Below are positions 8,826-10,810 of a stretch of DNA of 42,691 nucleotides, one piece after another. The number at the start of each line of letters is the position of its first letter. The first letter of the stretch is position 1. The stretch is from Candidatus Doudnabacteria bacterium. GTDB taxonomy: Bacteria; Patescibacteriota; Doudnabacteria; UBA920. The notes under the pieces are model-generated. The model saw only the letters and a list, made by a program, of their open reading frames with translations, ran no database searches and was not told the DNA's origin. The stretch covers positions 1 through 42,691 of the forward strand of contig JARLHZ010000009.1 of NCBI GenBank assembly GCA_031291995.1, in the 5' to 3' direction. The position numbers and the translations under genes were made by a program.

Positions 8826-10037
8826 CTACAGCTGATTACTAGTTTTTCTCAATTGATTTATAACAGGTATCAAAATTTTTATTACATAATCTAATTCAGC
8901 TTTAGAAGTGTCCCTGCCCAGGCTTAACCTGATACTGCTTTTGGCGGCCGTTTGAGACCGACCAATAGCCAATAAGACGTGTGAGGCGTCACTGCTGCCC
9001 GTAGCACAGGCACTGCCGGTTGAAACCTCCACACCATAGCTATCAAGGTACAACATTAAGGCTTCGCCTTCCACGCCTTTTATAGTTACATTGATATTAT
9101 TCGGCAAACGATTCCTGCTTGGCCCATTTAATGTAACTCCGGGAACTTTAAGTAACTTGGAAATCAAAAAGTCTACCAGTCTTCTTATTCTATTACTCTC
9201 CGGCTCAATAATAGCCTGCGACAATTCCAAAGCCTTTGCCAAACCAACTATGCCGGCAACATTTTCGGTTCCGCTTCTTAGGTCCCGCTCCTGGCCGCCG
9301 CCATAAATTATAGGCTTTAAATTTATGCCGTTCCTGACGAATAAAAATCCAGTCTGTTTCGGCCCATAAATTTTACTCCCGTTTACGGACATCAGGTCAA
9401 CACTCAAACGATTTACATCTATATCTAAAAATCCCGCGGCCTGGCAGGCATCAGTATGAAATGAAATACGTGTTAGACCGCTTCGTTCCCTTTCCGTGTT
9501 AATCCTTTTTAACAACTTTCCTATTTCGGCAATAGGTTCAATGGTCCCGATTTCGTTATTGGCATACATTATGGAAACCAAAGATGTTTCCGGCCGGATC
9601 ATTTTTTCAATATCATTGATGTTTACCTCGCCATCGCGATTAACATCTAAAATATCCAAACCATATCCCTCCTCTTTTAAAGCTTTAGCCGGATTAAGAA
9701 CGGCATGATGTTCAATGGCCGAGGTGATAATGTGCGGATGATAATTTTTGTCTGTTCGTAAATTTTTGGATACGCCAAAAATCGCCAAATTACAGCTCTC
9801 CGTTCCCCCAGCCGTAAAAATAATTTCCCCCGGCCTGGCACCAATAATATCCGCGATTTTTTTTCGGGCATCCTCAACGGCCATTCTGGCCTCTCTCCCC
9901 TTTTTGTACAGAGATGAAGGGTTGCCGAAACCGTCACTTAAAAAAGGCTCCATGACTTTTTTTACGAGCGGATCCACCGGGGTTGCGGCCGCATAATCTA
10001 AATAAATATTCTTTTTTTGAGAGACATTTGGAAACAT
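8826..10037 (-). CDS. Cysteine desulfurase (NifS/IscS family)
   Basis: This PLP enzyme takes sulfur from cysteine for Fe-S clusters and tRNA thiolation. The 403-residue protein begins YLDYAAATPVDP, has the PLP-contacting HTDACQ segment, the Schiff-base Lys in NGSKIYGPK (about K222) and the persulfide Cys in STGSACATGS (about C344). The position and short loop around this Cys fit the NifS/IscS group rather than SufS. No scaffold (iscU or sufU) or mnmA gene is adjacent. The gene is preceded by a hairpin and about 300 bp of structured sequence driven by a consensus promoter, so a regulated leader is possible. Confidence 0.93.
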   Translation of the reverse strand: MFPNVSQKKNIYLDYAAATPVDPLVKKVMEPFLSDGFGNPSSLYKKGREARMAVEDARKKIADIIGARPGEIIFTAGGTESCNLAIFGVSKNLRTDKNYHPHIITSAIEHHAVLNPAKALKEEGYGLDILDVNRDGEVNINDIEKMIRPETSLVSIMYANNEIGTIEPIAEIGKLLKRINTERERSGLTRISFHTDACQAAGFLDIDVNRLSVDLMSVNGSKIYGPKQTGFLFVRNGINLKPIIYGGGQERDLRSGTENVAGIVGLAKALELSQAIIEPESNRIRRLVDFLISKLLKVPGVTLNGPSRNRLPNNINVTIKGVEGEALMLYLDSYGVEVSTGSACATGSSDASHVLLAIGRSQTAAKSSIRLSLGRDTSKAELDYVIKILIPVINQLRKTSNQL

Positions 10038-10062
10038 AATTTTCTCTAAACTGTAAATAAAT

Positions 10063-10086
10063 GCCGCGCGCTTTTAAGCTCGCGGC
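10063..10086 (-). terminator. GC-rich hairpin between structured leader and cysteine desulfurase gene
   Basis: On the minus strand GCCGCG pairs with CGCGGC and inner GCTT with AAGC, with an AA loop, followed by ATTTATTTAC. It ends about 25 nt before the ATG. It could end a separate small RNA or act as an attenuator; the T-run is interrupted. Confidence 0.55.
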
Positions 10087-10368
10087 AGGAGGGGGAAGAA
10101 ATTGGCACTGTGGAAGCCTGGCCGCACTCTTTATCAGCCAGTCCGGGGATCTAAATGCTTCCGCGATTACCCACGCCACAGCGATCGTAACCCCGAATTT
10201 CGAATAGGTCAGGTTGACTGGCCGCACCCATCTTTGTTCAAGGATGGGTCGATCGCTGTCCAATGTTATACTCCTCCTCCTTACCCGCCGCCTACCGCGA
10301 AATTTATTGTATCCCTACCTTCCGCGGGACCCAGCTTCCAAGCCAGGATTTTAACCCAAATCAAATCG
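10087..10368 (-). ncRNA. Candidate structured RNA or 5' leader upstream of the cysteine desulfurase gene
   Basis: This 360-bp gap has no convincing gene but has a perfect sigma-70 promoter at its far end and several compatible helices on the minus strand. CCAGCTTCCA (10331-10340) and its partner at 10111-10121 can close the structure with one bulge. ACAGCGATCG (10178-10187) pairs perfectly with 10250-10259, enclosing the hairpin ACCCATC/GATGGGT (10226-10249). A hairpin with arms CTGGC and GCCAG, and a CCGCGGAA/TTTCGCGG hairpin, also form. A GGAGGAGGAG tract could pair with CCTCCT near the end. I could not match it to RNase P RNA, tmRNA, SRP RNA, 6S RNA, T-box, TPP or cobalamin consensus elements. 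Confidence 0.5.
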
Positions 10369-10374
10369 CCTTCA

Positions 10375-10403
10375 ATTATAAAGACGCCGCTATAAATTGT
10401 CAA
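10375..10403 (-). promoter_or_regulatory. Consensus sigma-70 promoter
   Basis: On the minus strand TTGACA (10398-10403), 17-bp spacer, TATAAT (10375-10380): both hexamers and the spacing are consensus. Transcription would start near 10368 and run through the structured region towards the cysteine desulfurase gene. The -35 overlaps the end of the preceding coding region. Confidence 0.85.
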
Positions 10404-10810
10404 CGTCCCGACTTCGCAAACCCGGCCGCCAGGGCTTCGGCCTCGGTATTAAAACATTGCTCGGGCTTTACAACTTTATACGAAGCCCCTCCGGGAACGT
10501 GATAAAGCTTCCTGCCGCCGGTGGAAATATTTCCCTTAATCAGGCAATTTGCGGTTGTGGTCGCGGCTCCGGCCACCGCCGGCTTAGCTGCCGGCAACGT
10601 AGAGGTGGCAGCGGGCTTGGCCGCTGGAATTTTCGCCTGCGAAGTGGTATAATTAGTTTGAGATTTAACGTTTGTTGGCCTGGTTCCTTTCGAGTAATTA
10701 CCGGTTCCGAATCCGACCAAAAACACCAAGACAAAGCTTATGCCAAGCATAACCTTGTCCTTATTTTCTTTTTGTTTATACCAGGTCTTTATTTTTTCGT
10801 AAGTAATCAT
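10400..10810 (-). CDS. Membrane-anchored protein with Sunset-type (Ada-like Cys) C-terminal domain
   Basis: A 136-residue protein with a charged N terminus, one membrane helix (about residues 21-37, MLGISFVLVFLVGFGTG), an Ala/Pro/Thr-rich linker and a C-terminal module CLIKGNISTGGRKLYHVPGG, then KPEQCFNTEAEALAAGFAKS. This module resembles the small Cys-containing domain that follows secreted nucleases and competence-related proteins, where it may bind metal or nucleic acid. It would face outside the cell. The ATG at 10810 is supported by an extended -10 box 9 nt upstream. It may function in DNA handling at the surface, but no nuclease domain is attached here. Confidence 0.7.
   Translation of the reverse strand: MITYEKIKTWYKQKENKDKVMLGISFVLVFLVGFGTGNYSKGTRPTNVKSQTNYTTSQAKIPAAKPAATSTLPAAKPAVAGAATTTANCLIKGNISTGGRKLYHVPGGASYKVVKPEQCFNTEAEALAAGFAKSGR

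Follow-up and report, generated by a model that had tools for sequence, protein, structure and literature searches.

A candidate structured small RNA with a conserved, helix-masked Shine-Dalgarno-like motif upstream of nifS in one family of Candidatus Doudnabacteria

The element is located on the minus strand of the window (the whole 42,691-nucleotide stretch of DNA analysed here), between a gene for a 136-aa protein and a gene for a cysteine desulfurase (nifS). The features of the locus are as follows.

10400..10810, minus strand: upstream gene, 136-aa protein with an N-terminal hydrophobic segment; the neighbour is kept in relatives
10375..10403, minus strand: promoter TTGACA-N17-TATAAT, 12/12 consensus; it overlaps the upstream gene's stop codon
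10054..10368, minus strand: predicted RNA of about 315 nt (promoter, terminator, absence of coding signal)
10271..10291, minus strand: 5' strand of the core helix, GCGGCGGGUAAGGAGGAGGAG (pair probabilities 0.6–0.9), including AAGGAGGA at 10282–10275
10261..10263, minus strand: UUG 3' of AAGGAGG, a possible start codon by sequence, with no conserved ORF
10178..10259, minus strand: inner arm, closed by the perfect 10-bp helix ACAGCGAUCG/CGAUCGCUGU (MFE fold)
10082..10100, minus strand: 3' strand of the core helix, anti-Shine-Dalgarno-like, UUCUUCCCCCUCCUGCCGC or nearly so (pairing, shuffle test)
10054..10087, minus strand: intrinsic terminator, hairpin 10087–10062 and U-rich tail (dG −16.7 kcal/mol)
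8826..10037, minus strand: downstream cysteine desulfurase gene of the NifS/IscS type (PF00266, E = 4e-74)

The TTGACA box occupies 10403–10398 and the TATAAT box 10380–10375, with a spacer of 17 nt, and the perfect promoter reported in a preliminary description of the locus is thus confirmed at all 12 positions (10403–10375). The start of the predicted RNA was placed about 7 nt past the −10 box and its end at the U-tract. The terminator reads TGCCGCGAGCTTAAAAGCGCGCGGCA (10087–10062) followed by TTTATTTA and ends 24 nt upstream of the nifS ATG, in agreement with the terminator-like hairpin described earlier at 25 nt from that codon. A −10 box belonging to nifS itself is not clear in the window. 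The upstream 136-aa protein gave no match in a Pfam search. A 40-aa ORF starting with TTG (10281–10403, minus strand) overlaps both the promoter and the upstream stop codon (TTGA); its codon use is gene-like (0.27 bits/codon, in an ORF too short to judge), and it has no counterpart in relatives.

The interval had been described as about 300 bp without a credible gene, and the measured stretch of about 315 nt bears this out. The 109-aa ORF that follows AAGGAGG scores 0.016 bits/codon in the part before nifS, as compared with 0.21 for nifS and 0.06 for the 5th percentile of real genes, and has no Pfam match; a protein-coding reading was rejected on these two grounds. The preliminary description had also failed to match the element to known RNA consensus elements, and a search of Rfam 15 agrees: the window has no match at the gathering score, the region 9950–10480 has none even at E ≤ 10, and 16 nifS loci have none at E ≤ 1. 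ARAGORN found no tmRNA in the window. The RNase P RNA of the genome matches at C3:21799-22201 (92 bits, where the cut-off is 100) and its ssrA (tmRNA) at C15:5086-5479 (115 bits). The element resembles the housekeeping RNAs (RNase P, tmRNA, SRP, 6S) in size and in its single copy per genome, but identity with RNase P RNA or tmRNA was rejected, as the genome's own copies sit elsewhere and the element is missing at the nifS genes of many relatives. The 6S (RF00013) and SRP RNA (RF00169) models match nowhere in any of the 22 family genomes, so a very divergent version of either is formally conceivable.

The predicted fold of the window RNA includes the core helix 10291–10271/10100–10082, which contains AAGGAGGAGGAG and is bulged in the window (GGGUA ahead of AGGAGG). 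The pairing of GGCGGCGGG with CCTGCCGC, proposed earlier as an antiterminator, has a pair probability of 0.8–0.9 and forms the base of this longer helix, and the 10-bp helix reported at 10259–10250/10187–10178 is likewise present in the MFE fold. The outer closing helix of the preliminary description (10331–10340/10111–10121) fares differently: the complementarity exists, but the helix is unsupported because CAGGCTTCC is taken up by a local helix in the MFE fold. In the predicted fold, the true core is the former antiterminator pairing rather than the outer closing helix. The terminator's 5' arm and the 3' strand of the core helix have 9 nt in common in the window. The whole 334-nt leader has a folding z of −1.1, unremarkable for its composition, and the motif domain has a z of −3.1. 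The duplex of the AAGGAGG strand is equalled by 5 of 300 downstream shuffles and ranks third for downstream pairing among the 101 AAGGAGG sites of the genome. This conserved and masked AAGGAGG(A) strand, which resembles a Shine-Dalgarno (SD) sequence and is the defining feature of the family of RNAs, was absent from the preliminary description.

The same layout is found at ten nifS loci of one Candidatus Doudnabacteria family, in genera g1, g3, and g6, and runs in the order promoter, variable 5' domain, AAGGAGG in a long helix, and terminator abutting or overlapping that helix. Besides the window, the members are G001, G002, G004, G005, and G007 (same genus), G009 (g3), and G012, G019, and G021 (g6). 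The RNA always lies between the 136-aa-type gene and nifS, co-directional with nifS; the upstream gene in the members ends in AGFxKSSR and is the same gene as that of the window. The promoters of the relatives match the consensus at 9–12 of 12 positions just past this gene, with the 17-nt spacing kept in nine of the ten members, and all ten have an intrinsic terminator. Core helix and terminator share 1–9 nt in nine of ten members (1–4 nt in half of them) and none in L034. At L038 (G009), the terminator lies 348 nt from nifS. Six loci (L034, L035, L045, L050, L051, and L054) have a consensus TATAAT about 6–13 nt before the nifS ATG, past the terminator of the RNA, and a −10 box so near the start codon suggests a leaderless or nearly leaderless nifS mRNA. 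G002, G005, and G007 have the helix a second time, in less strict form, beside the terminator.

The distribution of the RNA is narrow and patchy: each genome that has it carries a single copy, and all copies known so far come from one Doudnabacteria family. The nifS loci of genera g2, g4, g5, and g7–g10 are without the element; in G003, there is a promoter and a structured leader, with AAGGAGG missing; and in the g5 relatives L036 and L033, a promoter just past the upstream gene reads into nifS with no such RNA in between. The nifS loci of other CPR lineages show no comparable upstream helix. BLAST searches with the leader in 98 relatives returned chance pieces only, and a DNA pattern search gave nothing beyond the known G005 copy; as the sequence of the RNA drifts too fast for DNA searches, nifS synteny is needed to find orthologous sites. 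A covariance model, R1, made with nine members that represent eight RNAs and resting on one ungapped helix, recovered seven known nifS loci at E < 1e-11 in a search of 145 genomes. Its weaker matches (L250–L257) lie mostly within open reading frames, and one of them, L254, is a tandem repeat. R1 matches neither the window nor L050 at E ≤ 5, and the membership of the window copy therefore rests on synteny and architecture. Helix scans of the genome itself, which is nearly complete, gave no other matching element (four inspected matches are without such an RNA). No convincing match was found outside the family, and the RNA was not found in phage records.

Three other elements were met in these searches. 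In family f3 of the same order, a different element, about 300 nt long, sits between a methyltransferase gene and nifS (L049:1160-1450, L042:2721-3020, and L048:2721-3020), with 86% mean column identity over three species and no Rfam match. Its minus strand folds better than the other (−98.6 versus −78.4 kcal/mol), and it is possibly another undescribed RNA. The L254 match (L254:1072-1669), in an unrelated Patescibacteria genome, consists of tandem hairpin repeats of 103–119 nt beside tRNA-like sequence, two units having AGAAGGAGGA-N5-6-ATGG; these repeats are a possible analogue of an SD-bearing hairpin RNA. A palindromic repeat, CCCCTCC...GGAGGGG, occurs at six places in the window's own genome (G000): C2:41061-41240, C25:94114-94218, C32:21004-21058, C11:33559-33615, C16:46288-46342, and C18:4538-4592. 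The copy at C2 is in frame within a gene that resembles the exonuclease domain of DNA polymerase I; those at C25 and C32 apparently lie within open frames too.

Covariation was evaluated on nine aligned domains over a 14-bp core helix. Paired cells make up 92.7% of the helix as compared with 74% in shuffles, double changes number 23 against 7.9 ± 2.3, and none of 500 shuffles attained the covariation score of 0.538 (0.172 in shuffles). With the partner slid by 1–3 columns, the score was at most 0.227, a control that is somewhat favourable because the helix was chosen from the same sequences. Columns 3 and 6 each show all four Watson–Crick pair types; the strong part of the covariation consists of these two positions and the double changes in the flanks. 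Covariation among homologues upstream of nifS, which the preliminary description had proposed to look for, is strong against shuffles at the helix flanks. In the three g6 species, the RNAs of about 400 nt fold alike and 16 pairs change on both sides, although with three aligned rows only, and with an unfavourable covariation term.

The two strands of the core helix behave differently. The 5' strand GAAGGAG is nearly invariant, and its 3' partner changes mostly to U, giving G–U pairs; a fixed motif strand with a partner drifting to G–U indicates selection on the sequence of the motif strand beyond pairing. AAGGAGGA is present in nine of ten non-redundant regions, where any 8-mer reaches at most three in shuffles; it is the only widely shared 8-mer and the only conserved sequence, and it occurs once per RNA, within a long, GC-flanked helix. 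In every member, the downstream pairing of the motif strand exceeds that of at least 96% of shuffles, and the motif domains have z values of −3.1 to −8.4. In the predicted mature folds, the motif is fully paired, in duplexes of −19 to −31 kcal/mol. Taken with the missing Rfam match, the kept promoter and terminator, and the lack of a conserved protein, the covariation upholds the original proposal of an undescribed structured RNA.

The 3' end of the 16S rRNA is intact and carries the anti-SD sequence, GGATCACCTCCTTTCT. Use of SD sequences in the genome is low: any 4-mer SD precedes 152 of 976 long ATG ORFs as compared with 87 in a control window, a count that is somewhat underestimated because starts were taken as the first ATG. 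AAGGAGG itself stands before 4 of the 976.

A conserved SD-like motif locked in a helix suggests a new RNA that may sense or compete for ribosomes. Our preferred reading, held tentatively and as somewhat short of an even chance, is a structured small RNA, transcribed separately and ending at an intrinsic terminator, that would act via the 16S anti-SD. The anti-SD tail of the 16S rRNA would read the fixed motif strand, in which case the RNA would act on 30S subunits. The motif would emerge about 60–190 nt before its partner strand, and a 30S subunit could bind the RNA while it is being transcribed. Completion of the partner strand would mask the motif, and the RNA would be released as a stable form, which would have to open before competing for ribosomes; as the motif is fully paired in the mature fold, 30S binding needs either this kinetic window or remodelling. 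A more specific proposal is that, in cells whose mRNAs are mostly SD-less, this dedicated RNA retains in its conditional helix a near-perfect SD with which it measures or restrains free 30S subunits. It would then be an RNA-based device that senses or regulates how many ribosomes are available, the terminator serving as read-out; we consider this proposal unlikely as it stands.

The terminator could alternatively belong to a ribosome-sensing attenuator of nifS, with the core helix as antiterminator and 30S binding deciding between helix and terminator. If no 30S subunit were bound to the nascent AAGGAGG, the helix would form and take bases of the terminator 5' arm, and polymerase would read into nifS; if one were bound, the helix would be blocked and the terminator would form. 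The RNA always lies directly upstream of nifS in the same direction, the helix/terminator overlap in nine of ten members is largest (9 nt) in the window, where nifS has no clear −10 box, and in L036 and L033 (g5), the promoter after the upstream gene runs into nifS without the RNA. However, the gene order is kept where the RNA is missing, so its position may be simple inheritance; helix and terminator share just 1–4 nt in half of the members, and nothing in L034. The consensus TATAAT past the terminator in six relatives and the 348-nt gap at L038 make the RNA look like a transcription unit of its own, and on this evidence, the small RNA is preferred to an attenuator, which we regard as possible yet less probable for the family. 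In the window itself, given the 9-nt overlap and the lack of a clear nifS promoter, attenuation is quite possible. Of the antitermination switch conceived in the preliminary description, the shared nucleotides of helix and terminator stand, and the separate −10 boxes and the long gap at L038 speak against it; a switch at nifS is possible.

The remaining readings treat the motif otherwise. AAGGAGG with a following UUG, GUG, or AUG might be a genuine translation start that is hidden in the manner of type I toxin mRNAs, and the RNA a messenger for a short peptide. A start codon does lie 3–14 nt past the motif in eight of nine non-redundant members (a modest enrichment, with a hand-estimated P of about 0.01) and 4–9 nt past it in five of nine, and the window ORF extends over 109 codons, though running into nifS. 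L034, however, has no start codon in range, the ORFs of 14–109 codons have no common sequence, the window ORF shows neither coding signal nor Pfam match, and a 1-nt indel between two sister species, the closest relatives, shifts the frame after the motif, so that no peptide is conserved; we hold a peptide to be very improbable. The purine-rich strand might instead be a protein site (GGA-binding, CsrA-like or S1-like), or the C-rich strand a masked antisense seed for mRNAs, with the 16S tail uninvolved. GGAGGA is a typical GGA-type site, and the CUCCUU strand is complementary to any SD. CsrA-type GGA-binding proteins prefer hairpin loops, whereas the motif sits in a stem, and the antisense seed is disfavoured because the C-rich strand is the variable one; both variants appear improbable. 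Finally, a strong promoter and an insulating terminator with drifting filler and a leftover motif would require no function in trans, in keeping with the great variation in size and sequence and with the weak z of the whole window leader. The fixed 8-mer and the strong covariation argue against this, and we rate it the least probable of the readings.

Among known systems, RNA thermometers, translation-controlling riboswitches, and type I toxin mRNAs mask an SD and thereby control the ORF that follows. The pairing of an SD-like with an anti-SD-like strand is common to these elements and the Doudnabacteria RNA, but the latter is without a conserved ORF and is terminated before the next gene. With T-box and amino-acid attenuators it shares the position of a 5' leader and a helix overlapping a terminator arm; it differs in having no Rfam T-box or riboswitch match, no conserved leader peptide or aptamer core, and in that nifS often has its own promoter. 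SprF1 of Staphylococcus aureus is a ribosome-associated ncRNA whose purine-rich 5' end is proposed to bind the ribosome and attenuate initiation (PMC8938821). It is the nearest functional analogue of the Doudnabacteria RNA: both would be independent small RNAs with a purine-rich stretch, and the resemblance is confined to how they are proposed to act. SprF1 serves as an antisense antitoxin and has the stretch at its 5' end, whereas the Doudnabacteria motif is internal, masked by a helix, and has no toxin partner. The literature searched on Doudnabacteria, on RNAs of the CPR, and on SD decoys yielded no match, and no Patescibacteria-specific structured RNA was found in the open-licence literature. 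As the ORF of a masked SD is missing here and the likeness to SprF1 is only a proposed one, we report a new, narrowly distributed group of RNAs with a proposed mechanism.

The RNA combines the layout of a complete gene with covariation, and its sole fixed sequence complements the 16S tail of an organism in which SD use on mRNAs is low. This connects ribosome supply with a small RNA, in a specific way that experiments could test, in cells that are minimal and probably depend on a host.
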